64,000 nt of DNA from Magnetospirillum sp. XM-1 (GTDB lineage Bacteria; Pseudomonadota; Alphaproteobacteria; Rhodospirillales; Magnetospirillaceae): positions 4,430,001 to 4,494,000 of the forward strand of contig NZ_LN997848.1 of the NCBI RefSeq assembly GCF_001511835.1, read 5' to 3'. The notes beneath the pieces are model-generated. The model saw only the letters and a list, made by a program, of their open reading frames with translations, was not told the origin of the DNA and did no database searches. Positions within the stretch are counted from its first letter, which is position 1. Every line of letters starts with the position of its first letter. The translations under genes and the position numbers were made by a program. Positions 1 through 17,527 of this stretch are shown here, one piece after another.

Positions 1-117
1 CTGATTTCCTATGGCGGCACCGCCATGCTGTCGCTGCTGCTGGGCTGGGGGCTGGTGATGAGCGCCTATATCCACCGCGACATCCCCATCTCGCGGCGCG
101 GCATGGGCGAGGATTGA
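1..117 (+). CDS. rodA: RodA/MrdB (SEDS peptidoglycan glycosyltransferase), C-terminal fragment
   Basis: Only the last 38 codons are in the window, ending at TGA 115-117. The residues LISYGGTAMLSLLLGWGLVM match the last transmembrane helix of the SEDS family (FtsW/RodA/SpoVE), where a YGG(T/S) motif precedes the final helix. The tail SAYIHRDIPI resembles RodA (I/T-H-R-D) rather than FtsW. RodA polymerises glycan strands for cell elongation in the inner membrane with a class B PBP. A strong hairpin terminator follows 25 bases later, so this is the last gene of its operon. FtsW cannot be fully excluded from a fragment. Confidence 0.75.
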   Translation: MISYGGTAMLSLLLGWGLVMSAYIHRDIPISRRGMGED

Positions 118-141
118 ACCTCGGCCGCCTCAGGCAAAACA

Positions 142-172
142 AAAGCCCCGGGCCAAGGCCGCGGGGCTTTTT
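142..172. terminator. Rho-independent terminator, bidirectional
   Basis: Stem AAAGCCCCG/CGGGGCTTT with an inner GGCC/GGCC pairing, followed by TTTTT on the plus strand and preceded by AAAA (T run on the minus strand). It lies between the convergent rodA end and the small minus-strand gene and can serve both. Confidence 0.85.
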
Positions 173-184
173 CGTCGGGACCGG

Positions 185-415
185 TCAGACGTCGCGTTCG
201 GGATCGATATCAAAGCGGCGTTTGCCGTACTTGCCGGTGAAGGACGGGCCGTCGTCGATCTCCACGTGGTCGCGGCCGAACGTGGCCTGGCGCATCAGAC
301 GCTCCTGCAGCTCGATCATATGCTGCCAGTACTGCATCATCTGGTTGGCCGAGTTCATCCAGCCTTCCATCATGGCCCGCTGCATCTCGACCATGTTCTT
401 GTAGGGATCGGTCAT
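185..415 (-). CDS. Small Met-rich helical protein of unknown function (76 aa)
   Basis: I do not recognise a family. The start at 415 (MTDPYKNMVEMQRAMM) is preceded by a strong ribosome binding site (GAGGAGG, 7 bases upstream), which argues against the longer frame from 460. Residues 5-45 should form an amphipathic helix rich in Met, Gln and Trp, reminiscent of phasin-like or coat proteins. The C-terminal 30 residues are charged and Asp-rich. It is the last gene of the minus-strand run from 8446, 135 bases after the STAS gene, so it may belong to the same transcript. A granule- or membrane-associated role is speculation. Confidence 0.6.
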   Translation of the reverse strand: MTDPYKNMVEMQRAMMEGWMNSANQMMQYWQHMIELQERLMRQATFGRDHVEIDDGPSFTGKYGKRRFDIDPERDV

Positions 416-550
416 TATCTTGCCCTCCTCGGCCGACGGCCCTGGCCGGTTCTTATTCATACGAACCGGTTAGGGTCATATCTGCCGCCTATGGTAGCGC
501 AGACCAGGAAGACATGCCAGCCACCCCGATGCAGGTCCGATATCGCCGGA

Positions 551-880
551 TTACAGGGCAGCCAGTGCGGCGGCCCGGTCGGCGTAGATGGACAGGATCT
601 TGGCGAAGCCGGAAACGTCGAAGACCTCGCGGATATGGGGCTTCATGGAGCACAGGGCGAACTTCCGCGTGCCGCGCGTCATCTTGGCGCCGACCAGAAC
701 CACCCGCAGCCCGGCGCTGGAGATGTAGTCCAGCTCGCCGAAATCGATCAGAATCTTCGGCGCGCCGGCATTGACCACCGCCAGAACACGGCCTTCGAAG
801 GCCTTGGCCGTCGAGCTGTCCACCCTGGCGAGGGGAATCAGCACGGTGGCGTCGCCAGCCTGTTCTTCACGAATTTCCAT
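551..880 (-). CDS. STAS-domain anti-sigma factor antagonist (RsbV/SpoIIAA-like)
   Basis: A 109-residue single STAS domain. The signature YISSAGLRVVL (about residues 53-63) carries the conserved Ser that is phosphorylated by RsbW-type kinases and dephosphorylated by PP2C phosphatases in partner-switching systems. The start is ATG 880 with GGAGAG 9 bases upstream; TTG 883 is a possible alternative. It lies 14 bases downstream of the gene encoding a fused PP2C phosphatase plus HATPase kinase, so that protein is the obvious partner. When unphosphorylated it should bind a target; no sigma factor is in the window, so the output is unknown. Confidence 0.9.
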   Translation of the reverse strand: MEIREEQAGDATVLIPLARVDSSTAKAFEGRVLAVVNAGAPKILIDFGELDYISSAGLRVVLVGAKMTRGTRKFALCSMKPHIREVFDVSGFAKILSIYADRAAALAAL

Positions 881-894
881 CAACCCAAACTCTC

Positions 895-3600
895 CTATGC
901 CGAAATCGTTTTGCGCAGGGTCGTGGTGTTGTGTCCACCCTCGTGCGCGTACTCTGTCCCGTCCATGAATTCCTTCACCAGGAACACCCCCAAACCGCCG
1001 ATGGGGCGATCCTCGACGTCCAGGTCGAGATCGGGGATGGGCGCCTCGGTGAAGGGATCGTACTCCTTGGCGTCGTCGATGATGCGGGTCACGAATTGGC
1101 GGCCATCGTAGATGAACTCCACCTGGATTTCATGAGCATCCTCGTCATCGTATCCATAGGAAATAATGTTGGTGATCAATTCGTCCAGGCAGACGTTGAG
1201 ATTGAAGGCCAGCTTTTCCGAAAGGCCGTGCTTCTCGATGAACATGTCGACCAGTTCGGCCAGACGCTCCAGCTCGGCGACATCGTTGGCGATGACCATG
1301 GCCACCCGGTCGGGGTCCATGTCGACGGGAGCGGGGACAGGAACGGGAGCGGGAGCGGGCGCCGCCGGCGCCGCCGCAGAATCCTGTCCGGGCTTGGCCG
1401 TGGCCCCGCCATCCATTTCGTAGCCTCCCGTCGCCGGGAATCCGGTCAGCATCAGCCGTGGCCGGGCTTCCATGGGCGCATCCGGGTCCATGGAAGCCTG
1501 ATCGAAGCGCAACGTCAACATGGTGATGTCGTCGAATTGTGGCGCGTTGCCGACGAAGCCTTCGACGGAACGCAGCACCCCTGCTATGACCGCCTCGGGG
1601 GCGCTGTCCTCGATCCGGCCCAGCTCGGCGATCAGCCGCGGCTCGTCATAGAGGGCGTCGACGGAATCCTGGGCCTCGGTGACGCCGTCGGTATAGAGGT
1701 GCAGCACCTCGCCGGGGGCGAGCATGAAGCTGCCGGTCTCGTATTCCAGGTCCTCCAGCACGCCGAGCGCCACGCCGGAAACGTTGCGGATGGCCTCCAC
1801 GTTGCCGGTGCTGCGCACGATCATGGGCGGCGGATGGCCGGCATTGCAGAACCCGACCTCGCCGGTGCGGGTGTCCAGCACGCCGTAGAAGCAGGTGGCG
1901 AACAGGGTCTGGGGATTGTCGCGGGCCAGCATGGTGTTGACGAAGGCCAGGCATTCGCCGGGGCTGCTGGACAGCGGCGCCACCGCCTTGACCAGCGAGC
2001 GGGTGATGGCGATGAACATGGCCGCCGGCACGCCCTTGCCCGAGGCGTCGCCGATGACGAAGCCCAGGTGGTGGCGGTCGATGAGGAAGAAGTCGTAGAA
2101 ATCGCCTCCCACCTCCTTGGCGGGCACCATGGAGGCGTGGATCTGGAACTCGGCCCGGTCGGGGAAGGGCGGGAACACCTGGGGCAGCGACGACAGCTGC
2201 AATTCGCGGGCGAAGTCCAGCTCCTGGCGCAGCGCCGCCAGCTGGTCGCGGGTGCGCAGGGCCTCGCGCAGGATTTCCACGTCGCGGGTGCGTTCGGCGA
2301 TCAGGGATTCCAGGCGCTCGTGCTGCTCGCGGATACGCGACGACATGGTCTGGAAGGCCACGGCCAGCACTTCCAGCTCGCCCTTGGAGCCGTCGCCCGC
2401 CTCGTCGCCCGAAGCCGTGCGGTTGGACAGCGCCTCGATCTGGCGCAGATCGTCCAGCACCGCCTCGCGGGCGTCTTGCTCCAGCATCTCGGACAGACGC
2501 AGCATCTGCAGGCGGATGAACAGTTCCTGGCGGCGGCGCTGACGTTCGCGCCGCTCTTCCAAGAGGTCGATCTTGATGGCGTTCTCGCGGAAGACGCCCA
2601 CCGTGCTGGCGATGCGGCCGATCTCGTCGTTCTCGTGCCGCACGTCCAGCATCACCGAGGTGTCGCCCCGAGACAGGGCGTTCAGCACGGCGATGGCCTG
2701 GTCGAGGGGATCGAAGGAGCGCCGCAGATAGACCGAGAACACCGCCAGGACGAAGACCAGGAACAGTCCCACCGCCCCGATGGCGATCATGCGGATTTCA
2801 TGCTGGCGCGCCTGGGTGCTGGTGGAATCGCGCACGCTGACCAGGGCACCGATCACGCGGCCCTCGCCATCGGCCAGCGGGAACACCACCACGGAATAGA
2901 AGCGCGAGCCGTCGCGCCAGCTTTCCAGCCGGCTCTTGCGCACCGAGATCTTGGACTCGAACACCTTCCACAGCAGGTCGTTGGTGCCGTCGGTCATGCT
3001 TCCGGCGCGGTCGACCAGGAAGACGTCGGACCCGGTGGAGGCCTTGAACTCCTCCAGCGGCGGCCTGAGGTCGGAGACGATGGTCGCCACACCCACCACC
3101 GCCCCGTCCAGCCCCGCCAGCGGCAGGGTGATGGCGGCGATGAACTGCTTGTCGCTGTTCTGGGTGATGCCGGTGCGCGCCTTGCCGCTTTCGGCGATCA
3201 GCCGCACCGTGCCGGCATCCACCAGCGGGTTCTCCAGCAACGAGCCCTGGGAGGTGTAGAGCAGGTCGCCGTCCAGGCCGACGATCTCGACGCGGCCCAC
3301 GCCCCGGCGGGTCAGCCCGGTGACGGTGGGGGCCATGACCTCGCGGGTCTCGCTGGGGCTCTTGCGGGCGATGGCGGCGATCATTTCCTGGTTGGCCGCC
3401 AGCAGCGGCGCGGCGGCCTCCAGGCGCTGGACGGTGTTCTCCACCAGCTTGTCCCAGAAGATCTGCTGGCCGTTCAAGGTGGCCTGGACGTAGCGCTCGT
3501 CGGCCAGCTCCTCGTTCTTCACGCCAGCGAAGAACAGGCCCGCCACCAGCAGGGAATAGGTGACGGTGACGATCAGCGTTACGCGGGTACGGAGCAGCAT
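895..3600 (-). CDS. Membrane sensor with HAMP, SpoIIE-type PP2C phosphatase and RsbW-like HATPase
   Basis: 901 residues. TM helix 8-26, periplasmic sensor about 27-270 (Cache-like, two lobes), TM helix 271-292, HAMP about 293-345, coiled coil 345-465, PP2C/SpoIIE phosphatase 465-700 with metal-binding Asp in EVGGDFYDFF and GDASGKGVPAA, an Ala/Pro linker 735-762, then an RsbW-type HATPase 765-895 with N-box LDELITNIISYGY and G2-like GGLGVFLVKEF. In classical partner switching the phosphatase (RsbU) and kinase (RsbW) are separate proteins; here both activities toward a STAS protein sit in one chain under a periplasmic sensor. The gene overlaps the upstream formyltransferase-like gene by 22 bases and precedes the STAS gene, so they are probably translationally coupled. 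Confidence 0.93.
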   Translation of the reverse strand: MLLRTRVTLIVTVTYSLLVAGLFFAGVKNEELADERYVQATLNGQQIFWDKLVENTVQRLEAAAPLLAANQEMIAAIARKSPSETREVMAPTVTGLTRRGVGRVEIVGLDGDLLYTSQGSLLENPLVDAGTVRLIAESGKARTGITQNSDKQFIAAITLPLAGLDGAVVGVATIVSDLRPPLEEFKASTGSDVFLVDRAGSMTDGTNDLLWKVFESKISVRKSRLESWRDGSRFYSVVVFPLADGEGRVIGALVSVRDSTSTQARQHEIRMIAIGAVGLFLVFVLAVFSVYLRRSFDPLDQAIAVLNALSRGDTSVMLDVRHENDEIGRIASTVGVFRENAIKIDLLEERRERQRRRQELFIRLQMLRLSEMLEQDAREAVLDDLRQIEALSNRTASGDEAGDGSKGELEVLAVAFQTMSSRIREQHERLESLIAERTRDVEILREALRTRDQLAALRQELDFARELQLSSLPQVFPPFPDRAEFQIHASMVPAKEVGGDFYDFFLIDRHHLGFVIGDASGKGVPAAMFIAITRSLVKAVAPLSSSPGECLAFVNTMLARDNPQTLFATCFYGVLDTRTGEVGFCNAGHPPPMIVRSTGNVEAIRNVSGVALGVLEDLEYETGSFMLAPGEVLHLYTDGVTEAQDSVDALYDEPRLIAELGRIEDSAPEAVIAGVLRSVEGFVGNAPQFDDITMLTLRFDQASMDPDAPMEARPRLMLTGFPATGGYEMDGGATAKPGQDSAAAPAAPAPAPVPVPAPVDMDPDRVAMVIANDVAELERLAELVDMFIEKHGLSEKLAFNLNVCLDELITNIISYGYDDEDAHEIQVEFIYDGRQFVTRIIDDAKEYDPFTEAPIPDLDLDVEDRPIGGLGVFLVKEFMDGTEYAHEGGHNTTTLRKTISA

Positions 3601-4478
3601 GCGTCCCCCCGCCCGTTGGCCACCGCATTGGCCACCGCACTGGGCATGACCATGTCCGGCGGCAGGAAGCCCGACAGAATTTCAAGATATTCGGCCGGCT
3701 CGAACAGTTTCAGCCCCTTGGCCCTGAAGGCGGCGAAGGGCTCGGCGCCGGGCAGCGAGCCGTACTGGCGCAGGCTGAAATCCTGGGGCGCGTATTCCGG
3801 CTCGAGCCCCCGGCGCAGCCGCGCCAGCATGGCGAGGAACAGGTCCAGCCCCGGGCGGTAGGTGTTGACCACATGCCAGAGCAGCGAGCGGTCGCGGTTG
3901 ACGGGCAGGTAGCCGATGCCGACGATGGGGCCGGTGTCGATGCCCTTGTCCACGCGATGCAGCGTGCAGCCGATTGACTCCGAACCGTCCAGCATGCAGC
4001 GGAACGGCGCGAACAGCCCGGCATAGCGCGGCAGGGCGCCGGGATGGACGTTATAGGTGCCCAGGCGCGGGATTTCATAGGTGTTGGGCTTGAAGATCAG
4101 CGAGAAGCGCGCCGAGATGGTCAGGTCGGGCGCGAAGGCGCGGATGCGGGCCTCGCCCTCGGGGCCGTTCAGGTCGGAGATGCTTTCGATGGTGATGCCG
4201 TAGCGGGCGGCGAGGCCGGCGAAGGTCAGGAGCGGCGCGCCTTTCGCCTCGGCCCGGTCGATGAGCGGGAACAAGATGTCCACGGGCAGGTCGCGCTCGT
4301 AGAACTTGATCTCCGCCAGTTCGGGGACGGTGTTCTCCACGGGCCGCGTCTTCTCGCTCATCAGCACCGTCACCGTGTCGCCGGCCAGATGCGGCAGCAA
4401 GGTGTTGAGAATCAGCGCTCCGGCCAAGTCCATCTTGGTGCAGACGAGAATGCGGAGCGGCGGCTGGGCGGGAATCAA
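3579..4478 (-). CDS. Formyltransferase-family protein (Fmt-like catalytic domain), substrate unknown
   Basis: 299 residues from TTG 4478, which overlaps the TGA of the upstream gene (TTGA) and has AAGGAG 9 bases upstream. The central segment YNVHPGALPRYAGLFAPF (about residues 157-174) and a later DKGIDTGPIV carry the Asn-His...Asp catalytic set of the 10-formyltetrahydrofolate-dependent formyltransferases (Fmt, PurN, sugar-nucleotide formyltransferases). The C-terminal tRNA-binding OB domain of true Fmt is missing, so this is unlikely to be the housekeeping methionyl-tRNA formyltransferase. It is embedded between a periplasmic binding protein and a sensor phosphatase, so it may modify a small molecule related to the signal. 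The substrate cannot be read from the sequence. Confidence 0.82.
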   Translation of the reverse strand: MIPAQPPLRILVCTKMDLAGALILNTLLPHLAGDTVTVLMSEKTRPVENTVPELAEIKFYERDLPVDILFPLIDRAEAKGAPLLTFAGLAARYGITIESISDLNGPEGEARIRAFAPDLTISARFSLIFKPNTYEIPRLGTYNVHPGALPRYAGLFAPFRCMLDGSESIGCTLHRVDKGIDTGPIVGIGYLPVNRDRSLLWHVVNTYRPGLDLFLAMLARLRRGLEPEYAPQDFSLRQYGSLPGAEPFAAFRAKGLKLFEPAEYLEILSGFLPPDMVMPSAVANAVANGRGDACCSVPA

Positions 4479-5500
4479 GGCTTGTTCTCCTTGGCCTCGG
4501 CGCGTTCGATGATCTCGGCCAGCCCCATCAGCTTCATGGGGGGAAACAGGCCGATCTGCCGCACCACCGGCATGTTGATCAGCACCGACAGCCGCTTGGG
4601 CGCATCGATGGGAATGTCCTTGGGCGCGATCTTGCGGACCAGGATCTGCTCCGCCTTGTAGGCGGTCAGCTGGCCGACCGTGTAATAGCGGTAGACGCCG
4701 CCGATCATGGCCTTGGAGGTCACCACCGGGTTCTCCGCCGCGGCGAAGGTGGGGATGGCGTGGTCCAGCGCCGCCTGGGTCAGGATGTCGCGGTTGATGT
4801 TGAGGAAGGTGTCCGGCGGGATATAAAGGAAATCCACCCGCGCCGCCTTGATCTCCGCCACCTTGGCCGGAATGCTGGCCGGCAGGGGCTTGCCGCCCTC
4901 CACGTCCACCGGCAGCGCCACCACGTCGAAGCCGGTGGCCTTGCCGATGCCTTCCAGCTGATCCGCCGCCACCTGGGAGTTGCGCTCCAGCGGATTGTAG
5001 ATCATGCCCAGCCGCTTGATGGGCCGGTAGGACTGGATCAGGTTGACCTGGGTCTCCATGGGCACCAGGTAGAGCGTGCCGGTGATGTTGCGCTCCGACG
5101 ACCCCAGGCTGGGGACCACGCCGCCCACCGGCTGCGACACCACGGCGAACACCGCCGGAATGTCGGTGATGTGGCGCGCCGGGTCGATGGCGTCGAAGCG
5201 GCCCAGCATCTCCTCGCTGACCGTGGTGCCCCAGGTGAACACCAGATCCACCTTCAGCGCCTTGGCCTCGTCGACGAACTCCGCCAGCTTGGCCTTGTCC
5301 TGGCCGGCGTCGCGGATGATCAGCTCGACCGGAATGCCCTGGTTGGCGAAGTAGTCCTTGAACCCCTGGGCGGCATCCTCCCAGCCCCGCCACAACGCCA
5401 TGTAGATACGGAACGGCTTGGCCGCCGGCTCGGCCGCCCAGGCGCCGCCCGACAGAAGCAGGGCGCCCAACGCCAGGAACAGGGCGAGAAGCCGTCTCAT
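4475..5500 (-). CDS. ABC transporter substrate-binding-like periplasmic protein (ABC_sub_bind family)
   Basis: 341 residues. An N-terminal signal peptide (MRRLLALFLALGALLLSGG, cleavage near AWA) precedes a two-lobed type I periplasmic binding fold resembling the ABC_sub_bind family (TrpX-like): segments such as DLVFTWGTTVSEE, NITGTLYLVPME and GMIYNPLERNS fit the family pattern. The start ATG 5500 overlaps the stop of the MFS gene (ATGA). No permease or ATPase gene is nearby, which is unusual for a transport component and suggests that it delivers ligand to the neighbouring membrane sensors instead, as LuxP does for LuxQ. That role is inference. Confidence 0.85.
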   Translation of the reverse strand: MRRLLALFLALGALLLSGGAWAAEPAAKPFRIYMALWRGWEDAAQGFKDYFANQGIPVELIIRDAGQDKAKLAEFVDEAKALKVDLVFTWGTTVSEEMLGRFDAIDPARHITDIPAVFAVVSQPVGGVVPSLGSSERNITGTLYLVPMETQVNLIQSYRPIKRLGMIYNPLERNSQVAADQLEGIGKATGFDVVALPVDVEGGKPLPASIPAKVAEIKAARVDFLYIPPDTFLNINRDILTQAALDHAIPTFAAAENPVVTSKAMIGGVYRYYTVGQLTAYKAEQILVRKIAPKDIPIDAPKRLSVLINMPVVRQIGLFPPMKLMGLAEIIERAEAKENKP

Positions 5501-7590
5501 TCTTCCCACTCCGCCTCGATGTGGGGACCGGCGTGATAGGCGAACGACAGCAGGGCGAACACCGTCGCCATGGCCAGAACCACCCAGCCCAACGCCACCA
5601 CCGCGCCCTCGTACCCGCAGACGGGGATCAGGGCCGCCGCCAGCAAAGGCCCGGCGAAACTGCCGATACGCTCGGCCAGGCGCAGGAAGGCCAGCACGTT
5701 GGTCTGGCCGATGGCCCGGCACTCGGTCCAGCACAGGTCGGGGATCATCGCCAGCTGCGGCGAGGCCGACAGGCCGTGCGACACGCCCAGCAGCAAAATC
5801 GCCATCTGCATGGCCATCACCGGCTCGCCCCAGAAGGACGGCAGCAACAGGCCGGCCCCGCCGATCAGGCCGCCCACCGCCACCAGGCCGGCCCGCCAGC
5901 CCACCCGGTCGGCGAAGCGCGCCACCAGCGGCGACAGCACCACCACAGACACCGGATAGGCCATCATCATCCGCGCCATGTCGCCCAGGTCGAGGGAGGC
6001 GTACTTGGACAAGGTGAGCGGCACCAGGAAGAACAGGAAACCGGTCAGCGCGATCTTGGACGGAATGGCCGCGAAGGCCACCAGCGCCGAGAAGCGCCAG
6101 TTGCGCAGCAGGCGCAGGAAGTCCCGCTTGCGGGGGCTGGGCCCCTCGGCCACGGGCTGGGCGCTGTCCAGCAGGCGCCAGATCAGGATGGCGGTGACCA
6201 CGGTCAGCGCCGCCGCCACCAGGAAGGTGACGCGGTAGCCCATCCGCTCGGCCAGCACGCCGCCGATGCCGGTGCCGCACACGCTGGCGGTCAGCACCGC
6301 GCCCACATAGACCCCCAGGCCCTGGGTGCGGTTCTGCTGCTTGGACACCTGGGCGATGTAGCCCTGGCAGGCCATGGTGATGAAGGCGTAGCCCAGCGCC
6401 GTGGCCAGACGCCAGAGGATCAGGTCGTAGACCGACATGGCCAGCCCGGACATGACGAAGCCGATGGTGGCCGGCACCAGGCCGATCAGGAACACCCGGC
6501 GCGCCCCCAGGCGGTTGGCCATCAGGGAGGCCGACGGCGAGGCCAGCGCGATCACCAGCATGAACACCGCGATGGGCAGCCCCATGACCATTTCCGGGGA
6601 GAGGCCCGGAATGGGGGCGTAGAGGTCGCGGATGTAAAGCGGCATGAACGAGCGCGAGATTTCCTCGGCGAACACGAACAGGAACAGCGGCAGGCGGATG
6701 TCGGTGGCCTGATGCTCGTTGATGACCTCGGGCTGGCCGTTACGGGCGAAGCGGAACAGGAACCGCACCCGGGATTCGATGTCCCTCACCTTCTCGACCA
6801 CACCCTGGTCGAAATGGGCGGCCTTGACCTCGTCGATATAGGCCTCGAGCCGGCGGAACAGCTGGTCGGCCAGCCGGATGGCGCTGTTGAAGCCATGGAC
6901 GAAGCGCCCCACCTCGTCGTCGGAGGTGATGCCGGCCGAGCAGCTGAAGTCGCCGCGCCGCACCCGGTCCATCACCACGCCCACCACCCGCATGGGCCCC
7001 GTGATGTTGAAGGTCACCACGAACAGCAGGATCTCCACCGCCACCAGCAGCGCCACCAGGGTGACGACGCCCAGGTCGATGAGGATTTCCTGCAGCCGCC
7101 CCTGCACATAATCCTGGTCCATGCCCACATGGACATGCCCGATGCGGCTGCCCTTGATGGTCAGGGGCTGGACCATGTCGATGAAGGCGCCCAGGACGAG
7201 TTTGCGCGGATGGTCGATCTCGGTGGTGAAATCCGCGCCGCCATAGACGGAGTCCAGGGCCGAACGCTCGGCGCCCTCGGCGAACAGCACCTTGCCACCG
7301 CGATCGGTGATCGCCAGATAGCGCAGTTCCGGGTTGGCGGCCAGGACGGGGGCGAAGAACTGGTCCACCCCCTGCAGCTGATCGAGCGGAATGCCGTAGC
7401 CCACCGCCCGCTCCACCGAGGCTTCGAGGTCGCGGCCGATGGCCTCGGCCTTCTTGTCCATCTCGGGAACCAGGCCGCGGCTGAACTCGTCGGTGGCCTC
7501 GTGGGCGATCCAGCCCACCGGCGGCACCAGCACCAGGATCACCAGCAGCAGCAGGCGGAGAAACAGCGGGCGGGTCCGGTCGAGGATCAT
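5497..7590 (-). CDS. Sensor-HAMP-MFS transporter fusion protein
   Basis: 697 residues. Residues 1-190 look like the input half of a receptor: TM 9-28, a periplasmic domain 29-168 (LRYLAITDRGGKVLFAEG and IGHVHVGMDQDYV are Cache/PAS-like), TM 171-194, then a HAMP-like segment 195-245 (ITGPMRVVGVVMDRVRRGDF). Residues 298-690 are a 12-helix major facilitator permease, with a family-typical MANRLGARRVFLIG loop after helix 2. So an extracytoplasmic sensor with a HAMP relay is joined to a transporter instead of a kinase or chemotaxis domain. It lies 10 bases downstream of another Cache-like sensor gene and overlaps the binding-protein gene by 4 bases. Confidence 0.88.
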   Translation of the reverse strand: MILDRTRPLFLRLLLLVILVLVPPVGWIAHEATDEFSRGLVPEMDKKAEAIGRDLEASVERAVGYGIPLDQLQGVDQFFAPVLAANPELRYLAITDRGGKVLFAEGAERSALDSVYGGADFTTEIDHPRKLVLGAFIDMVQPLTIKGSRIGHVHVGMDQDYVQGRLQEILIDLGVVTLVALLVAVEILLFVVTFNITGPMRVVGVVMDRVRRGDFSCSAGITSDDEVGRFVHGFNSAIRLADQLFRRLEAYIDEVKAAHFDQGVVEKVRDIESRVRFLFRFARNGQPEVINEHQATDIRLPLFLFVFAEEISRSFMPLYIRDLYAPIPGLSPEMVMGLPIAVFMLVIALASPSASLMANRLGARRVFLIGLVPATIGFVMSGLAMSVYDLILWRLATALGYAFITMACQGYIAQVSKQQNRTQGLGVYVGAVLTASVCGTGIGGVLAERMGYRVTFLVAAALTVVTAILIWRLLDSAQPVAEGPSPRKRDFLRLLRNWRFSALVAFAAIPSKIALTGFLFFLVPLTLSKYASLDLGDMARMMMAYPVSVVVLSPLVARFADRVGWRAGLVAVGGLIGGAGLLLPSFWGEPVMAMQMAILLLGVSHGLSASPQLAMIPDLCWTECRAIGQTNVLAFLRLAERIGSFAGPLLAAALIPVCGYEGAVVALGWVVLAMATVFALLSFAYHAGPHIEAEWEE

Positions 7591-7600
7591 GGCCGCCCCC

Positions 7601-8446
7601 TCACATCAGCCGGTCGAGACGGCCGACTTCGTCGGTGGCGTCCTTGACATGGTCGATGGTCTCGCGGGTCTTGCCCACGAACTCGGCGAAACGCTCCTCG
7701 AAGGAATCGCCGCCCGCGTCGGGAACGGCGAGGCCGCCCACGGACAGCACGTCGCCCATGGCCTTTTCCATGCTGCCCAGCTTACGCCCCACCCCGCCGA
7801 ACAGGGCGTAAAGCCCGATGACCGCCACGGCCGAGGCCGCCAGCAACGCGATGGCGATGCTTTTCAGCAGCTGGCTCAACAGGCCGGAAACACCCTTTTC
7901 AACATAGGCGATGGGATAGCGCAGCACGACGCCGCCTTCGACCTTGCCCAGATTGTTGACCAGGGGAAGGCCGACGATCAGGTTGTCCTCGTCCACCACG
8001 CTGAACGATTGCTGCATGCCGCTGCGAATAGCCTCGGCCAGGGGTTCCGACACCCGGGTGCCGATGGCGCCGCGATCGGTGTCGAACAGCACTTCGCCCC
8101 GGTAGTCGTAGACTTCTACCGCCAGAATCTGGGCGTCGCGGGATTTCTCGCGCTCGATGATCTCCTGCACCTGGCGGAGCTGGCGCAATGCAAACCCCAG
8201 GTTGAGGCTGTCCTCCACCCTTTTCTTGATGGTGAACACCACGAAGGAATAGCGGGACTGCACCTGGGCGGAATAGACGCTTTCGAACTTGTAGTAGGCG
8301 AAGAAGGCGGTTACCAGCAAGGTGGAAAACAGGATGGAAACCAGGGCCAGCGACACCTTGCGGGCCAGCGACCAGCGCACGGGGCGAGCCGGTGGAAGGC
8401 AGACGCCGGTGCCGCCTGCGATGCTGGATTGCCCCATTAATTCCAA
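7601..8446 (-). CDS. Membrane-anchored periplasmic sensor protein with HAMP-like tail and no output domain
   Basis: 281 residues if translation starts at TTG 8446 (AAGGA 9 bases upstream); ATG 8437 is the alternative. TM helix about 28-50, periplasmic domain 51-200 (ILAVEVYDYRGEVLFDTD and IVGLPLVNNLGKVEGGVVLRY are Cache-like), TM helix about 205-228, then a 50-residue helical cytoplasmic tail and nothing more. It is the first gene of the operon and resembles the N-terminal sensor half of the next protein. It may form mixed receptors with the downstream sensor proteins. No family name assigned. Confidence 0.75.
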   Translation of the reverse strand: MELMGQSSIAGGTGVCLPPARPVRWSLARKVSLALVSILFSTLLVTAFFAYYKFESVYSAQVQSRYSFVVFTIKKRVEDSLNLGFALRQLRQVQEIIEREKSRDAQILAVEVYDYRGEVLFDTDRGAIGTRVSEPLAEAIRSGMQQSFSVVDEDNLIVGLPLVNNLGKVEGGVVLRYPIAYVEKGVSGLLSQLLKSIAIALLAASAVAVIGLYALFGGVGRKLGSMEKAMGDVLSVGGLAVPDAGGDSFEERFAEFVGKTRETIDHVKDATDEVGRLDRLM

Positions 8447-8626
8447 GACCCGTTATCCTTCCCACCGGGCGACGGTTGAACCAAGCGGCCGAAGCGACTA
8501 GAAGCAGGTTCCGTTTATAAGATATTTACTGAAGCCGTCCAAGTGCGTGGAGGCCTGAATTCCCAGGAATATCGGAGAATCTTCATCCCCTGTCCAATCA
8601 TGTGGACCTTTGAGCAAAAGATTCCA

Positions 8627-9481
8627 ATGACTTCACAACACGGACATACAGTGTTCACCTCATTCGATGCTATACCAGCGACATATCCGGTGGGAATTTT
8701 CGACTCCGGGGTGGGGGGGCTGACCATTGCCGCAGCCATTCGACGCACCATGCCCGACGAAAAGCTGCTCTATCTGGGCGACGTGGCCCGCCAGCCCTAT
8801 GGCACCAAATCGCCGCGAACCGTGACACGCTATGCGGTCCAGGCTTCTGAATTTCTGGTTGAGAAGGGCATCAAGGCGCTGGTGGTGGCCTGCAACACCG
8901 CCTCGGCGGTGGCGCTGGGCGCCATTTCAGAGCGCTTTCCCGGCCTGCCGGTCCTCGGCGTGGTCGAAGCGGGCGCCGACGGCGCGGCGCGGGCCTCGGC
9001 CCGGGGACGCATCGTGGTCGCCGCCACGGAAGGGACCTGCCGCTCCGAAGCCTACGAGCGCGCCATCGCCCAGCGCCGCCAGGACGCCCGGGTCCGTTGC
9101 ATCCCCTGCCCGCTGTTCGTCGCCCTGGCCGAGGAGGGGCTGACCGACGGCCCCATCGTCGAGAGCGTAGCACGCCACTACCTGGGCTCGCTGTTCGACG
9201 GCAGCGAGGGGGGCGACTGCCTGGTCCTGGGCTGCACCCATTTCCCGCTGCTGGCTCCGGTCCTGGCGCGCCTCGCCGGGCCAGGCGTCACCCTGGTGGA
9301 TTGCGCCGAGGCGACCTCGTCCATGCTGGTCCGGCTTCTGAAAGGGCGCGAAGCCCCGAAGGGCGGCGGCGGCGGCCTGCAGTTGATTTCAACCGACGCG
9401 CCGGAGCGCTTCGCCCGCATGGTGGGCAAGCTGTTCCCCGCCATGGGGCCGTCGCCGGCGGTGGAACTGGCGGACCTTTAA
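8627..9481 (+). CDS. murI: Glutamate racemase MurI
   Basis: Interconverts L- and D-glutamate for peptidoglycan. With the start at ATG 8627 the protein has 284 residues, the usual family length (about 260-290). The N-terminal GIFDSGVGGLT contains the conserved Asp and Ser. The two catalytic cysteines are at about 89 (VVACNTASA) and 203 (LGCTHFPLL). ATG 8600 and 8543 are in frame but would add sequence with no family counterpart; GTG 8651 is also possible. It is transcribed divergently from the sensor operon, and the 180 bases upstream are AT-rich compared with the surroundings. Confidence 0.96.
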   Translation: MTSQHGHTVFTSFDAIPATYPVGIFDSGVGGLTIAAAIRRTMPDEKLLYLGDVARQPYGTKSPRTVTRYAVQASEFLVEKGIKALVVACNTASAVALGAISERFPGLPVLGVVEAGADGAARASARGRIVVAATEGTCRSEAYERAIAQRRQDARVRCIPCPLFVALAEEGLTDGPIVESVARHYLGSLFDGSEGGDCLVLGCTHFPLLAPVLARLAGPGVTLVDCAEATSSMLVRLLKGREAPKGGGGGLQLISTDAPERFARMVGKLFPAMGPSPAVELADL

Positions 9482-9492
9482 AAAGCTCCGGG

Positions 9493-9690
9493 CTATTCCA
9501 CCGGAACCAGGTCGTCGATCATGGGCCCCGCCAGACGCAGCGCCATGGCGCACACCGACTGCTCGCCGCATTGGACCGAGCAGGAGCGGACGCTGTCGAT
9601 AAGGCGCAGGCATTCCGAGTACTTGCCCTCGCCATAAAGGCGACGGGCCTCGGACAACATGGCGATGCAACGATAGGATTGTCCGGTCAC
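9493..9690 (-). CDS. Small cysteine-containing protein, function unknown (65 aa)
   Basis: I chose GTG 9690 because GGCGGAGGGG lies just upstream. The protein has five cysteines (about 8, 27, 36, 40, 46), including the cluster SCSVQCGEQSVC, and no signal peptide or TM segment. It begins 16 bases after the end of the neighbouring 63-residue gene, so the two form a small operon. The convergent murI ends 11 bases away. The Cys pattern could bind a metal or a cluster, but no family is recognised. Confidence 0.55.
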   Translation of the reverse strand: MTGQSYRCIAMLSEARRLYGEGKYSECLRLIDSVRSCSVQCGEQSVCAMALRLAGPMIDDLVPVE

Positions 9691-9706
9691 GGTCCCCTCC
9701 GCCGGA

Positions 9707-9898
9707 TCAGGCGGCGCAGTCGCCCGCCGCCTGGGCATAGAGCTCATCCACCAGAATTCGGGCGACACCCGGGGTCAGGCTCGAATCGCGCGCCAGCAGC
9801 ACCGCCCGCGCCGCGTCGCGCTCCTCGGCACAATCCAGGCCCAACCGCCGAGCGGCCGCGATGGCGCCGCCGATGATCTCGATGAGTGAACCGCTCAT
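9707..9898 (-). CDS. Small hypothetical protein (63 aa)
   Basis: Start at ATG 9898 with GGCAGGAC immediately upstream. The sequence MSGSLIEIIGGAIAAARRLG begins a probably all-helical soluble protein, with a single CAEE cysteine in the middle and another near the end. I do not recognise it. It is the first gene of a two-gene operon divergent from the TonB locus, so it may be co-regulated with metal or cofactor uptake; this is inference from position only. Confidence 0.5.
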   Translation of the reverse strand: MSGSLIEIIGGAIAAARRLGLDCAEERDAARAVLLARDSSLTPGVARILVDELYAQAAGDCAA

Positions 9899-10211
9899 GT
9901 CCTGCCCCGAATGCCGACCGTTGGAATTTATCCATTTCATGATGGAACCCATTGATGTCGCAGGCCAGAGACGAAGCGAAAGAACTTGTGAGTCCATGTA
10001 ACGAAGCCCGACCTTTTCCCACGGGGCCGGCTCGCAGGCATTCCGGACCGCCACATTGACGATGGTCAATTATAAATATCGAATATTATGGCGGTTTAAT
10101 TACTTACCTCCTGCAAATCGGCCGCAGCCGAGGGAATCTTCGTTGACTTTGCAAAAGACCACGCCTACACCGATGGCGTCGTCTTGACATTGATTTGGAG
10201 CGGCCGGGCTG
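9899..10211. promoter_or_regulatory. Divergent intergenic region between the small-gene pair and the TonB locus
   Basis: No gene seen in 313 bases. An AT-rich island at 10066-10110 contains the palindrome AATAT-CGA-ATATT (10075-10087), a possible repressor site shared by both directions. On the plus strand, TTGACT (10143-10148), a 17-base spacer and TACACC (10166-10171) form a plausible sigma-70 promoter 40 bases before the DUF2946 gene. Confidence 0.45.
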
Positions 10212-10640
10212 ATGAGCGGCGGCGTCTTGAGCCGAAGCGGTTGGTTACGAGGGATACGGGCCCGGGGGGCCGGTATCGTTCGCCTGCTGCTGTTGGCGTT
10301 CGCCCTGCAACTGGCCGTGCCGCTGTTCAACGTGGGCGGCATCGCCGCCCTGGCCGGCGAAGCGGCCTTCCAGGCCGACCTGCAATCCTCGCTCTGCCAT
10401 GACGGCAAGGTCGACGCCGCGCCGGATGATGTTCCGGTTCCTTCGGCACAGACCAAGCACTGCGTCTTCTGCCTGCCCATGGCCGGCGATCCGGCGACGG
10501 CGGGCTTCGCCGCGCAGCCCCCCATTCCCGCCTCCACCGAAATCACCGCCGCCCATGTGGCCGATGATCAGGTGCCCCAGGCCGCGCGTCCGGCCTTCGC
10601 CCGCTCCCGCGCCCCTCCGTCCACGCCTCGCACCGTCTGA
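10212..10640 (+). CDS. DUF2946-like small secreted protein, first gene of the TonB locus
   Basis: 142 residues. An N-terminal hydrophobic segment (IVRLLLLAFALQLAVPLF, about 22-39) acts as signal or anchor. The mature part contains LCHDGK and later KHCVFCLPM, the His/Cys-x2-Cys arrangement typical of DUF2946 proteins, which are often encoded beside copper-related TonB receptors. The C-terminal 50 residues are Pro/Ala-rich and low in information. GGAG lies 11 bases before ATG 10212. The TonB receptor gene follows after 48 bases. A role in periplasmic metal handling is inference from the motif and context. Confidence 0.7.
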   Translation: MSGGVLSRSGWLRGIRARGAGIVRLLLLAFALQLAVPLFNVGGIAALAGEAAFQADLQSSLCHDGKVDAAPDDVPVPSAQTKHCVFCLPMAGDPATAGFAAQPPIPASTEITAAHVADDQVPQAARPAFARSRAPPSTPRTV

Positions 10641-10688
10641 GCCATCCTGCCCCACCTGGGGCATTTTCACGGTTTTCGAGGATCGACC

Positions 10689-12794
10689 ATGCCTGCCCTG
10701 ATCTCCCGCCGCGCCATGCTGTGCGCAGGCACCGCCCTTTGCTCCATTCTTGCCATGGCGTCCGGCCCGGCCTATTCCGCCGACGACGCCACCGACATGC
10801 CGGAAATGACCATCACCGGCACGCGCGAAGGCCGGCTGAAATCCGAAACCCCGGCGGCGGTCACCGTGATCGGCAAGGACGTCATCGATGACGTGAAGCC
10901 CGGCCACCCCATGGAGCTGATGACCAAGGTTCCCGGTGCGGCCATCATGATCACCAACGGCGAAGGCCACACCACCGGCATCCGCCAGCCCATCGGCACC
11001 GGCCAGGTCTATCTCTACCTGGAAGACGGCATCCCCACCCGCGCCCCGGGCTTCTTCAATCACAACGCCCTGTTCGAGGTGAACCTGCCCCAGTCGGGCG
11101 GCATCGAAATCACCCGCGGCCCCGGCTCGGCGCTGCAGGGCTCGGACGCCATCGGCGCAGTGTTCAACACCTTGTCCAACCCGCCCTCCGCCGGCCCCGA
11201 GGTCAAGATCACCGCCGAGGGCGGCTCCTACGGCTGGGCGCGTGTGCTGGCCACCGCCAGCAACACCTACGGCGACACAGGCATCCGCGGCGACGTCAAC
11301 GGCACCCACACCGACGGCTGGCGCCGCCACACCCTCTATGACCGCCAGAGCGCCACCTTCCGCGTCGATCAGGTGCTGGGCGACGGCGTCAACGTCCGCT
11401 CGGTGCTGACCGGCTCCAACGTCGACATGGAAACCGGCGCCGGCGCGCGATTGATCAAGTCCGACTACCTGAACAATCCCACCGAAAACTACCACTCCAT
11501 CGCCTGGCGCCGGGTGAAGTCCATGCGCGGATCGGTGTCGTTCGACAAGGATTTCGGTTCCTCGCTGCTCAGCGTGACGCCCTTCGTCCGCTCCAACATC
11601 ATGGACATGAACCCGTCCTATTCGCTGTCCAGCGATCCCAGCATCCAGCTGTCGGGCCATTCCTCCCTGGGCATGCAGGTCAAGTACCGCCAGGATTTCG
11701 AACCCTGGCGCACCCGGCTGATCTTCGGCTCCGACTTCGACTACACCAAGGGTTTCCGCGACGAGGAACGCATCAACGTCACCAAGGTGGGCAGTTATTT
11801 CAAGTCCTACACCCACGGCCCCAAGATCTATAACTACGACATCGATTACGTGCAGATCTCGCCCTATGTCCATGCCGAGACCTCGCCGCTCGAACACCTT
11901 CGCCTGGAAGCCGGCCTGCGCCTCGACACCGTCAGCTTCGACTACCACAACCACATGAATTCGGGCGCTTTCTCGACGACGATCACCGGCGGCGCAACCA
12001 AGACCTTCTATCGTCCGAACGACACGACGCGCTATTTCAGCCACCTGAGCCCCAGCTTCGGCGCCACCTATTCCATCGACCCCATGGCCAACCTCTTCGG
12101 ACGCTACAAGCACTCGTTCCGCACCCCGGGCGAAGGCGACCTGTTCCGCTCCGGCCTCAACCAGGACAGCGTCCACCTCAAGCCGGTGACGGTGAACACC
12201 TACGAGATCGGCGTGAAGGGACCTGACAAGGGCAAGTTCACCTACGAGATCGCCGCCTTCACCATGCTGAAGCAGAACGACATCCTGTCGTCCAAGGCGG
12301 CGGACGGCACGCCCAGCCAGACCAGCAACGGCAAGACCAGCCACAAGGGCATCGAGCTGGGCGCCGCCTGGCAGGTCCTGCCCGAATGGAAGATCGAGGG
12401 CAACACCTCGTATGCCGTGCATAAGTACCGCCGCTGGGTTCTGTCGACGACCGAGGCCTATAGCGGCATGGAAATTCCCTCGGCGCCCCGCGTGGTCTCC
12501 AACGCGCAGCTGACCTGGACGCCCAACTTCGCCGAAGGCCTGCGGCTCTCGGGCGAATGGACCCATCTGGGGGCCTACAAGATGGATGATGCCAACACCA
12601 ATACCTATCGCGGCCATCATCTGTTCAACCTGCACGCCGCCTATACGGTGACCGAGAATTTCGAGGTGTTCGGCCGCATGATGAACATCATGGACGAGCG
12701 CTGGGCGACGCAGGCTCAGTTCGTCAGCAGCCGCGAGGAGTTCTCGCCGGGCCTGCCCCGTACCCTCTACGGCGGCGCGACTGTGAGGTTCTGA
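10689..12794 (+). CDS. TonB-dependent outer membrane receptor
   Basis: 701 residues with a signal peptide (cleavage near AYSA, about residue 30), a TonB box-like PEMTITGTREG, a complete plug domain (about 45-165, including VYLYLEDGIPTRAPGF and IEITRGPGSALQGSDAIGAV) and a 22-strand-type barrel ending in the aromatic-terminated strand YGGATVRF. It imports a ligand across the outer membrane with energy from TonB/ExbB/ExbD. The next five genes supply a partner protein and a dedicated TonB complex. The ligand is unknown; the DUF2946 and CxCC neighbours favour a metal, possibly copper. RBS GAGG is present 9 bases upstream of ATG. Confidence 0.95.
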   Translation: MPALISRRAMLCAGTALCSILAMASGPAYSADDATDMPEMTITGTREGRLKSETPAAVTVIGKDVIDDVKPGHPMELMTKVPGAAIMITNGEGHTTGIRQPIGTGQVYLYLEDGIPTRAPGFFNHNALFEVNLPQSGGIEITRGPGSALQGSDAIGAVFNTLSNPPSAGPEVKITAEGGSYGWARVLATASNTYGDTGIRGDVNGTHTDGWRRHTLYDRQSATFRVDQVLGDGVNVRSVLTGSNVDMETGAGARLIKSDYLNNPTENYHSIAWRRVKSMRGSVSFDKDFGSSLLSVTPFVRSNIMDMNPSYSLSSDPSIQLSGHSSLGMQVKYRQDFEPWRTRLIFGSDFDYTKGFRDEERINVTKVGSYFKSYTHGPKIYNYDIDYVQISPYVHAETSPLEHLRLEAGLRLDTVSFDYHNHMNSGAFSTTITGGATKTFYRPNDTTRYFSHLSPSFGATYSIDPMANLFGRYKHSFRTPGEGDLFRSGLNQDSVHLKPVTVNTYEIGVKGPDKGKFTYEIAAFTMLKQNDILSSKAADGTPSQTSNGKTSHKGIELGAAWQVLPEWKIEGNTSYAVHKYRRWVLSTTEAYSGMEIPSAPRVVSNAQLTWTPNFAEGLRLSGEWTHLGAYKMDDANTNTYRGHHLFNLHAAYTVTENFEVFGRMMNIMDERWATQAQFVSSREEFSPGLPRTLYGGATVRF

Positions 12795-12796
12795 TC

Positions 12797-14023
12797 ATGT
12801 CCCTGCTCCGGCCGCTGGTTCTGGCCAGCCTCCTCCTTTTCGCCGCCCCATCCTGGGCGGCGGAGCACCAGCACCAGCACGGCGGCGGCCAGGACGCGAA
12901 ACGGTCGGGCTGCGCACCGGAGAACACCGCGCTCGCCTGCGCCCAGGTGGCCAGCCCGGCCTTCCTGGCCGACGGCAGCCTGGCGCTGGCCTGGGCGGCG
13001 GGCGGGCGGGTGATGCTCGCCCGCTCCACCGATCTCGGCGCCAGTTTCCAGCCGGCGGTCGCCGTCAACGGCGGGCCCGAGGCCGTGGACGTGTCGGGCG
13101 ATTCCCGCCCGGCCGTCGCCGCCGATTCCAAGGGCCGCGTCTTCGTCGCCTGGTCGGTGCGCAAGGACTCGGCCTATAACGGCACCTTGTTCCTTGCCCG
13201 CTCGACCGATGGCGGCGCCAGCTTCATGCCGCCCCGCCACGTGGCCTCCGATCCGTCCAGCCAACGCTTCACCGTGCTGCGCACCGACGCCCGCGACCGC
13301 CTGTACATGGCCTGGATCGACAAGCGGGAGGGCACGGCGGCCAAGAAAGCCGGCCAGGCCTATCGCGGCGCCGCCCTGGCCGTGGCGTGGTCCGACGACG
13401 GCGCCGAGACCTTCGCCTTCGAAGGAATCGCCCAGTCCAATTCCTGCGAATGCTGCCGCATCGCCTTTGATTTCGACAAGACCGGGCGACCGCTGGTCAT
13501 GTGGCGTCACGTCTTCGAGCCCAATATCCGCGACCATGCCCTGATGGTGTTCGCCGACCGCGACAAGCCCGGTTCCATCCGCAAGGTGGCCGAGGACAAT
13601 TGGCGCGTCGATGCCTGCCCCCATCACGGCCCGGCTTTGGCCGCAGCGGCGGACGGCTCGGTCCATGCCGCCTGGTATACCGCCGGCACTGCGCGCAAGG
13701 GGGTGTTCTACGCCCGGGCCGCCGGACCGGACGCGGCCTTCTCCGAGCCGCGCCCCCTGGGCAATCCCGCCACCACCGTCTCGCACCCGCAGGTGCTGGC
13801 GCTGAAAGGGCGGCTGTGGATGGCCTGGAAGGAATTCGACGGCGAGACCACCACGGTCCAGGCCCAGGTCTCGGACGATTCCGGCCGCACATGGTCGCAG
13901 CCCAAAGGCCTGGCCCGAACGACGGATGCCTCGGACCGTCCGATCCTGTTAGGCAACGGCGCACAGGCCTTCCTGTCCTGGATGACCGCCGCCGAGGGCT
14001 GGCGGCTGGTCGCGGTGGAGTAG
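12797..14023 (+). CDS. Secreted BNR-repeat (sialidase-like fold) protein with Cys/His metal-type motifs
   Basis: 408 residues, beginning 2 bases after the receptor gene. A signal peptide (cleavage after SWA, about 22) is followed by HQHQH. The body has repeated Asp-box/BNR motifs such as STDLGASF, STDGGASF, SDDGAETF and SDDSGRTW, predicting a beta propeller as in sialidases. However, a SCECCRI motif (about 216-222) and DACPHHGP are not sialidase catalytic residues and look like metal ligands. A periplasmic or surface metal-binding partner for the receptor is more likely than glycosidase activity. That function is inference; the fold call rests on the repeated Asp boxes. Confidence 0.8.
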   Translation: MSLLRPLVLASLLLFAAPSWAAEHQHQHGGGQDAKRSGCAPENTALACAQVASPAFLADGSLALAWAAGGRVMLARSTDLGASFQPAVAVNGGPEAVDVSGDSRPAVAADSKGRVFVAWSVRKDSAYNGTLFLARSTDGGASFMPPRHVASDPSSQRFTVLRTDARDRLYMAWIDKREGTAAKKAGQAYRGAALAVAWSDDGAETFAFEGIAQSNSCECCRIAFDFDKTGRPLVMWRHVFEPNIRDHALMVFADRDKPGSIRKVAEDNWRVDACPHHGPALAAAADGSVHAAWYTAGTARKGVFYARAAGPDAAFSEPRPLGNPATTVSHPQVLALKGRLWMAWKEFDGETTTVQAQVSDDSGRTWSQPKGLARTTDASDRPILLGNGAQAFLSWMTAAEGWRLVAVE

Positions 14024-14026
14024 CCC

Positions 14027-14671
14027 ATGTACGCGGCGCGGCGCCAATCCTCATCCAAGCGTCTGGCCGGTCTGGCCGGGGTGGTGGCGCTGCACGCCGC
14101 CGCCATCTACGCCCTGGCCAACGGGTTGGGGCATTGCGCCGTCGAGATCCTGAAGGCGCCGCTGGAGGCCAAGGTCGTCGCCGAACTGATCAAGCCGCCG
14201 GAACCGCCCAAGGTCGAACCGCCGCCGCCGCCCAAGGCGGTGAAGCCGCCGCCGCCCGCCTATGTGCCGCCGCCCAAGACGCGGGTTCAGGCGCCACCGC
14301 CCGCCGCCATCACCGCCGTCACCCAGGAGGCCCCCGTGGCACCGCCGCCGCCGGTGGTCATCGCCCCGGTGGCCGCCGAGCCGCCGCCCGTCAAGGTGCA
14401 GCCCGCCCTGGACCAGGGCCGGCCGTGCAAGCCGCCGCAATACCCGCCCGCCGCCCGCCGGGCCGAGGAAACCGGGGCGGTGGTGCTGAAATTCCTGATC
14501 GACACCGACGGTTCGGTGATGGAAAGCGTCGTCGAAGCCACCAGCGGCTTCGAGCGCCTGGACGAAGCCGCGCGCCAGGCCCTGGCGCTGTGCCGCTTCA
14601 AGCCCGGGACAACCGACGGCCGCCCCGAACGCTCGTGGGCCCGCATCCGCTATGTCTGGAAACTGCAATGA
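14027..14671 (+). CDS. tonB: TonB energy transducer
   Basis: 214 residues. N-terminal TM helix about 13-33 carries the conserved His (H23) needed for coupling to ExbB/ExbD. A long Pro-rich periplasmic spacer (about 56-130, PPPP and KPPPPA runs) is followed by a TonB C-terminal domain (YPPAARRAEETGAVVLKFLI onward, ending RYVWKLQ). It transmits the inner-membrane proton gradient to outer membrane receptors. It lies 3 bases after the BNR gene and overlaps exbB by 4 bases (ATGA), so it is clearly part of this operon. Confidence 0.94.
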   Translation: MYAARRQSSSKRLAGLAGVVALHAAAIYALANGLGHCAVEILKAPLEAKVVAELIKPPEPPKVEPPPPPKAVKPPPPAYVPPPKTRVQAPPPAAITAVTQEAPVAPPPPVVIAPVAAEPPPVKVQPALDQGRPCKPPQYPPAARRAEETGAVVLKFLIDTDGSVMESVVEATSGFERLDEAARQALALCRFKPGTTDGRPERSWARIRYVWKLQ

Positions 14672-15468: not shown

Positions 15469-15899
15469 TGGCCATTTCCTTCGGCCCGGCCGGAGACGAC
15501 GGCGACGAGGACGGCGTGATGTCGTCCATCAACACCACGCCCCTGGTGGACGTGATGCTGGTGCTGCTGATCATCTTCCTCATCACTATTCCGGTGGTGA
15601 CCCACACCGTGCCGCTGCAACTGCCCAAGGAAGCCAACCAGCCCACCATCACCCAGCCGGGCAACGTCACCATCGCCGTGGACCATCATGGCAAGGTGTG
15701 GTGGAACGAGGAGAGCCTTGCCGGCCGCCCCGATCTCGCCGCCCGCCTGGACACCGCCGCCGCAAGGACGCCGCAGCCGGAAATCCACATCAGGGGTGAC
15801 AAGGATGCCGCCTACGAGCATGTGGGCCGCGTGCTGGCCGCCGCGCAAAGGGCCGGGATCACCAAGGTCAGCTTCATCACCGAACCGCCGCCGCGCTGA
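15468..15899 (+). CDS. exbD: ExbD biopolymer transport protein (first copy)
   Basis: 143 residues. The single TM helix contains the proton-carrying Asp in TPLVDVMLVLLIIF (D28), preceded by the usual SSINTTPL, and is followed by a small periplasmic domain. Start ATG 15468 shares its A with the exbB stop (TGATG). Works in complex with ExbB and TonB. Confidence 0.94.
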   Translation: MAISFGPAGDDGDEDGVMSSINTTPLVDVMLVLLIIFLITIPVVTHTVPLQLPKEANQPTITQPGNVTIAVDHHGKVWWNEESLAGRPDLAARLDTAAARTPQPEIHIRGDKDAAYEHVGRVLAAAQRAGITKVSFITEPPPR

Positions 15900-15910
15900 A
15901 GGCCCGCCCC

Positions 15911-16327: not shown

Positions 16328-16395
16328 CTTTGTGTTTGTCCCTCGCCGGGCGCGGCCCTCCGGCCGCTTGGCCGCCGCCTCAACGGCGGCTGATC

Positions 16396-16425: not shown

Positions 16426-16426
16426 T

Positions 16427-17508: not shown

Positions 17509-17527
17509 GGCGGGGACGGGTGTGTAA

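Follow-up and report, generated by a model that had tools for sequence, protein, structure and literature searches.

Positions 551-8446 of the DNA stretch analysed here (hereafter the window: 64,000 nucleotides from the 4.99-Mb genome of Magnetospirillum sp. XM-1) carry six minus-strand genes in a row, and a seventh, small open reading frame (ORF) lies at 185-460. Neighbouring genes of the row are joined by overlaps of 4, 4 and 22 bases and by gaps of 10 and 14 bases, verified to the base; an earlier note made without database searches (hereafter the sequence-only reading) had given the same six genes, strands, overlaps and gaps, all of which were correct. The operon is real, and both a conserved module and its parts emerge from the computation.

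The first gene in the direction of transcription (CACHE; 7601-8446) has a TTG start and encodes an orphan receptor of 281 amino acids, with a single Cache domain between transmembrane (TM) segments (TM-Cache-TM), C-terminal helices and no enzymatic output. The second (MFS; 5497-7590) encodes a protein of 697 amino acids in which an N-terminal TM-Cache-TM-HAMP part is joined to a DHA1-like transporter of the major facilitator superfamily (MFS). Next come a binding protein of the ABC_sub_bind (TrpX-like) type (SBP; 4475-5500), whose signal peptide was judged by eye, and a formyltransferase of the Formyl_trans_N type (FT; 3579-4478), which also has a TTG start. The fifth gene (PP2C-kinase; 895-3600) encodes 901 amino acids arranged as a dCache-HAMP-SpoIIE phosphatase, a Pro/Ala-rich linker and an RsbW-like HATPase, and the sixth (STAS; 551-880) encodes an anti-anti-sigma-like protein.

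Recurrence of the gene set across genomes

By protein, the nearest named relative is Magnetospirillum sp. ME-1 (95% for the formyltransferase and 96% for the MFS protein). Magnetospirillum gryphiswaldense MSR-1 carries the module too. Matches to MFS at 1e-10 were found in 47 of the 150 genomes of the order and in 11 of the 14 of the family, host included. The block, together with a divergent murI-like gene (Asp_Glu_race) upstream of the operon and the small ORF, is kept in 10 of 10 family loci with an MFS match, FT being absent from two. At 1e-60, a profile of the fusion matched 26 of 385 genomes in the class, in some cases through the transporter part only, and at 1e-80 it matched 8 of 398 genomes at the phylum level. 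Scanning named genomes yielded 52 loci, including those of Roseomonas, Tistlia, Azospirillum, Phreatobacter, Geminicoccus, Competibacteraceae and Vibrio. Loci (designated by L numbers) were fetched with their flanks from 36 of the 46 genomes of the order with a match (host excluded), from 17 of the 24 new ones of the class and from 3 of the 4 new ones of the phylum; L126 had no usable match. The 107 loci with a clear MFS include repeats (e.g., L127 = L095, L139 = L102, L090 = L040), and counts are therefore given by cluster, of which there are 48 at 65% MFS identity. These clusters, from Alpha- and Gammaproteobacteria, are not independent events, the gene caller was approximate, and some names of metagenome-assembled genomes (Nocardia, Stygiobacter, Asaia) may reflect misbinning.

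SBP accompanies MFS in 42 of the 48 clusters, and CACHE is a separate neighbour in 42 and fused to MFS in 5 more. Within 8 kb, PP2C was found in 27 clusters, STAS in 20, HATPase in 19 and any switch gene in 28. Among 167 pairs of adjacent module genes in the 48 representatives, 157 lie on one strand, 119 are separated by 30 bases or less and 71 overlap. The gene set is partly reordered in Roseomonas, Tistlia, Azospirillum, Phreatobacter, Competibacteraceae and others. The designation of the row as a signalling operon in the sequence-only reading holds. The row or its core recurs as one unit, mostly on one strand, in distant genomes. Scattered genes without co-occurrence, an outcome that had been named as speaking against it, are the opposite of what was found, and control loci of the same binding-protein family lack the partners.

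These controls came from the binding-protein family itself (PF04392), which at 1e-10 has 60 places in 80 genomes of the order, 15 of them in the module; the other 45 places make up 43 control loci (L153-L195), with flanks of up to 9 kb and some short contigs. In a six-frame profile search, MFS, PP2C, STAS, HATPase, FT, GNAT and PanB-like genes were found in 0 of 43 controls, and CACHE in one (L179, 31 bits against a cut-off of 30). The same search of the 48 module representatives gave MFS in 48, PP2C in 27, STAS in 20, HATPase in 20, GNAT in 15, PanB-like in 4, CACHE in 47 (including the Cache parts of MFS proteins) and FT in 12; at the FT cut-off of 60 bits, the highest-scoring other formyltransferase of the host (101 bits) would have been counted. 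Fisher values for module vs. controls, which are descriptive, are 4e-10 for PP2C, 3e-7 for STAS and 3e-4 for FT. The host genome itself has 9 SpoIIE, 7 Formyl_trans_N and 2 ABC_sub_bind places in its 4.99 Mb.

The wider set of 43 controls raised the support for co-occurrence and made the lack of an ABC transporter beside the binding protein a poorer marker of the module. Pairs of ABC ATPase motifs are present in 23 of 43 controls and in 6 of 48 module representatives; the first 20 controls, from the best-scoring end, had them in 17 and overstated the contrast. A binding protein without an ABC transporter had been singled out as an oddity of this locus; with the ATPase motif missing from 20 of 43 controls too, it is less odd and is weakened as a hallmark. 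The ABC_sub_bind family may often serve systems that are not ABC importers, as about half of the controls of the order would suggest.

Core, transferase position and partner switch

According to structure comparison, residues 291-689 of the MFS protein have an MFS fold nearest to VMAT, NorA, VAChT and MdfA, and also to SotB, so that drug and amine antiporters of the DHA1 type are its nearest matches. In VIA-align, SPNS2 (lipid), sugar-phosphate and monocarboxylate transporters lie 3 to 5 Z units below the drug/amine antiporters. The protein stays under the cut-offs of the 25 NCBIfam families listed. An MFS_1 match is present in 37 of 37 aligned relatives, and a CGxxxGG stretch, which we take to be antiporter motif C, keeps both invariant glycines. 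While the fold is that of the DHA1 antiporters NorA, MdfA, SotB and VMAT, the XM-1 protein carries, unlike them, an additional Cache-HAMP input domain. The MFS proteins of L117, L146, L071, L073 and L145 are longer and match the CACHE profile in their N-terminal region; such fusions suggest that CACHE and MFS work together. A second CACHE and a second, divergent MFS-like gene lie in or beside the operon in L101, L106, L132, L134, L136, L137 and L142.

The binding protein scores 81.9 bits against the TrpX equivalog NF041285 (cut-off 390), and its nearest solved relatives are 6HNI, 3LKV and 3LFT. Specificity for tryptophan was not retained, the score being under the TrpX cut-off. No ABC ATPase, the partner expected in a tryptophan ABC importer, was found by motif near SBP in positions 1-20000 of the window. 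A second alignment of SBP was made without L045 and L072, the latter being divergent. In L088, a single ORF spans MFS to formyltransferase, and an SBP match is absent.

Binding proteins that stimulate receptors are exemplified by LuxP-LuxQ and TorT-TorS. Unlike these, the XM-1 binding protein belongs to PF04392, and its partners are a Cache-HAMP-MFS fusion and an orphan Cache receptor, with no histidine kinase. UhpC offers a parallel of another kind, as a transporter domain is placed within a signalling system in both. The same is true of the SLC5-STAC histidine kinases, in which, according to the part of the source available, the transporter is joined to a kinase (PMC9100948); in XM-1, the transporter follows a receptor with HAMP and carries no kinase, which makes the transporter itself the likely output. 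As in the receptors stimulated by binding proteins that are the theme of PMC9602780, at least in its accessible part, the periplasmic binding protein of XM-1 apparently serves a receptor, in place of a permease or in addition to one.

FT matches PF00551 with 59.1 bits (cut-off 26.1) and has an Asn-x-His motif (Asn143, His145) and Asp181, which we take to be catalytic; His145 and Asp181 are present in 29 of 29 alignment rows and Asn143 in at least 90%. Against the Fmt equivalog TIGR00460 it scores 40.6 bits, under the cut-off of 201.5. A tRNA-binding C-terminal domain was not found, PF00551 being the only Pfam family above its cut-off, in agreement with the formyltransferase without tRNA domain of the sequence-only reading. 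A profile of the operon formyltransferases gives the host's six other formyltransferases 32 to 101 bits and the L088 member, which was not a seed, 365. The operons of Roseomonas, Tistlia, Azospirillum, Phreatobacter, Geminicoccus and others include or adjoin a formyltransferase of 36-45% identity. In the Magnetospirillum group, many of these enzymes have a Cys-rich C-terminal tail, which is missing from P0118-P0120 and L072 in the alignment.

In 31 of the 48 clusters, the transferase position is filled by a formyltransferase, by a member of one of three GNAT families or by a PanB-like enzyme (PF02548, 68.6 bits), and two of these classes never occur in one locus. GNAT2 corresponds to PF00583 and GNAT3 to PF13302 (one member of each scanned). 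None of three scanned GNAT1 members had a Pfam match; nine homologues of the L102 member included five with PF00583 and two with a GNAT name. The cluster of the window's relatives comprises 16 loci, equal to 12 genomes, of which six have FT, five have GNAT3 just downstream and one (L081) has neither, a pattern that may reflect a single replacement. Although old, the formyltransferase is an exchangeable part of the operon. The transferase class follows the MFS tree (6 changes without empty loci and 14 with them; shuffled mean 28.1), which is a quick tree with several long branches, L052, L130 and L135 (short contigs) being omitted and L088 cut to 697 residues. That the class goes with the transporter is as expected if the enzyme acts on the substrate of the transporter. 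A role of the formyltransferase in making or modifying the ligand, as proposed in the sequence-only reading, is plausible and is backed by the exchange along the tree. In 16 loci bearing FT, pairwise identities of MFS correlate with those of SBP, CACHE, FT and PP2C at 0.81, 0.77, 0.66 and 0.68, respectively, the pairs being non-independent.

The PP2C-kinase protein contains a SpoIIE-type PP2C phosphatase (PF07228, 170.7 bits, cut-off 25), with the motifs GGDF at 498, GDASGKG at 517 and FDDITM at 689, and an RsbW/SpoIIAB-like serine kinase (PF13581, 85.7 bits, cut-off 27.4), with DELITNII at 806 and GGLG at 868. Its best NCBIfam match is the SiaA equivalog NF038263, with 70.2 bits against a cut-off of 700. 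STAS is above the cut-off of TIGR00377 (56.7 vs. 53.45 bits) as a STAS antagonist, and its Ser55 is aligned with a site of SpoIIAA, presumably the phosphoserine site; the functional roles of the key motifs in FT, phosphatase, kinase and STAS are likewise assumed. PP2C and HATPase form a single protein in the window and two neighbouring genes in Roseomonas. Known partner-switching systems include RsbU/V/W, SpoIIE/AA/AB, HsbR-HsbA, SypE-SypA and SiaA-SiaB-SiaC. A PP2C phosphatase, an RsbW-like kinase and a STAS protein with the phosphoserine position are common to these and to the XM-1 operon; unlike them, XM-1 has phosphatase and kinase on one polypeptide behind a dCache-HAMP sensor, couples the switch to a Cache-MFS fusion, a binding protein and a transferase, and has no sigma factor or cyclase gene among the operon genes of the window. 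In slightly more than half of the lineages, these parts, with the phosphatase's own Cache sensor, would constitute a partner-switching output. By family and by motif, the parts of the ligand-triggered STAS switch of the sequence-only reading are present; as the essence of the operon the switch is not supported, and the emphasis should move to the core of Cache receptor, Cache-HAMP-MFS fusion and SBP.

Two loci encode a PP2C protein of 971 amino acids (L138:6634-9549 and L140:14715-17630), and residues 4-286 at the N-terminus of the L138 protein match the MFS-fusion profile. In L095, L101, L106 and L142, a class III cyclase gene (domain confirmed by Pfam in L101) or a relative of it is located within or close to the operon, where a cAMP output is possible.

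Interpretations of the module

The module is best explained, with about even confidence, as a receptor-gated exporter of DHA1/VMAT-like fold with a signalling output. A small, probably amino-bearing compound would be bound outside the inner membrane by SBP, the Cache domains or both. The Cache receptor would pair with the Cache-HAMP part of the transporter and set its activity, and the MFS domain would export the compound, or a formylated or acetylated form of it from the adjacent transferase. Through the dCache domain of the PP2C protein, the same ligand would shift the balance between the fused kinase and phosphatase and with it the phosphorylation state of Ser55 in STAS, which would then act on a target elsewhere in the cell. 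The core of some lineages would belong instead to a type VI secretion system (T6SS) gene cluster. That the transporter reports ligand status, as in the sequence-only reading, is one possibility of two; its fold, which resembles that of antiporters, speaks rather for a receptor-controlled exporter. If this is true, export is controlled from outside by a transporter with its own receptor and HAMP domain, an arrangement not described in the literature searched. No description of the operon was recognised in the open-access literature searched, which does not show that none exists. The gene set is kept together over many orders, and the formyl, acetyl or PanB-like exchange at one position would give a direct handle on the ligand. 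The cores embedded in T6SS clusters would offer a measurable output and could tie competition sensing to a defined receptor, and in Magnetospirillum the module is a candidate input for an unstudied STAS switch.

Several observations weigh against the receptor-gated exporter as set out here. Three of the 14 searched genomes of the family are without any MFS match. Within 8 kb (some contigs being short), switch genes are absent from 20 of the 48 clusters and the transferase from 17, so that neither is essential. The profiles behind the counts in module and control loci were built from module sequences; they favour module-type relatives and partly miss unrelated members of the same families. The HAMP and Cache parts of the MFS protein in the window are below the Pfam cut-offs, and their assignment rests on relatives and on a model. 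A fold common to amine transporters, as modelled, would be no proof of an amine cargo, and to our knowledge PanB-like enzymes do not act on amines. In a test with long outgroup branches, the operon formyltransferases did not resolve as one clade (p-AU 0.283, bootstrap unsettled, one outgroup row inside).

The same parts could be read as a detoxification operon, in which SBP and Cache sense an amine or antibiotic that is toxic, N-formylation or N-acetylation by the transferase renders it inactive, MFS expels it and PP2C/STAS starts protection. Acetyl and formyl transfer are ordinary means of amine neutralisation, the fold is nearest to NorA, MdfA, SotB and VMAT, and the transferase class changes along with the transporter. 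Several extracytoplasmic binding domains nevertheless exceed what efflux pumps usually have, the core is kept also in genomes without transferase or switch, and its place within T6SS gene clusters would be unexpected, which leaves detoxification a rather unlikely account. Fusion of MFS to receptor parts, with Cache receptors alongside in 47 of the 48 clusters, would also suit a transceptor, a non-transporting sensor or membrane anchor that relays ligand status to the PP2C protein and whose ligand the transferase supplies. There is precedent for transporter-like sensors in the SLC5-STAC kinases, as described in the consulted portion of PMC9100948. The MFS_1 match of every aligned relative and the retained glycines of the CGxxxGG stretch argue for a working transporter, and the clusters without a nearby switch gene would have nothing to read it; we regard the transceptor as doubtful.

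That the genes are ordinary neighbours, unrelated but transcribed together in Magnetospirillum, their order around murI and the mre-rod genes preserved through descent alone, would fit the place of the block beside murI in the Magnetospirillum group and beside rodA, PBP2-type, mreD and mreC genes in L090. The same set is found, partly reordered, in the distant genomes listed above, and its partners are absent from the 43 control loci save for one borderline CACHE match; this reading is contradicted by the data already and is highly improbable. Going beyond the receptor-gated exporter, the module might be a new type of self-contained circuit for chemical communication. The transferase would make an N-formyl, N-acetyl or hydroxymethyl signal, the gated MFS would export it, and SBP and the Cache receptors would read it outside, with feedback on the exporter and with a partner switch or, where embedded, a T6SS or peptide-export operon as the output; the transferase position would determine the dialect, with no change in the parts that read and export. 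We consider this extension unlikely.

Neighbouring genes and the 3' end of the operon

Six of the 48 clusters (L119, L146, L144, L100, L131 and L145) have T6SS genes next to the core or surrounding it, with Pfam matches for some of these neighbours; gene names such as ClpV and TssC are assigned from context. In Vibrio mediterranei (L117), MFS and SBP lie between a ClpV-like gene and a small SBP_bac_3 gene, followed by an FHA gene, and in L143 the SBP gene overlaps a VgrG gene by 4 bases. TssC is found in 12 of the 150 genomes of the order, namely in 3 of the 33 whose MFS match reaches 1e-50 (G083, G009 and G030) vs. 9 of 117 others, and a search of the host genome gave no TssC match. T6SS was therefore rejected as an output in the host and is not supported as a general one across the order; the link is a lineage-specific association only. 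As context, T6SS genes are upregulated in co-cultures of V. mediterranei, in a paper whose main text, in the part available, never says MFS (PMC7374056).

Seven Roseomonas-type loci (L109, L110, L111, L112, L115, L120 and L123) continue with genes for a repeat-rich protein, an HlyD protein and a peptidase C39-ABC exporter, assigned by Pfam in L110 and by clustering in the other loci. Near the core in L063-L070 are ABC transporter genes and a diaminopropionate ammonia-lyase-like gene, which in L067 is above the PRK08206 cut-off; L068 adds a gene of the non-ribosomal peptide synthetase (NRPS) type. These associations, like those with T6SS, are post hoc observations. Since the outputs differ across lineages (PP2C/STAS, a T6SS neighbourhood, a cyclase-like gene or none seen), no single common output was assigned. 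The L090 group places the block in a cell-wall neighbourhood, with rodA-, PBP2-, mreD- and mreC-like genes downstream on the opposite strand (L090:17471-21842) and murI upstream.

The small ORF 3' of STAS (185-460, minus strand) has 91 codons and is conserved; it had no family above cut-off in the domain-family scans and may be part of the operon transcript. Beyond it lies a terminator-like hairpin (144-160, minus strand), of a kind that occurs at chance frequency in the region.

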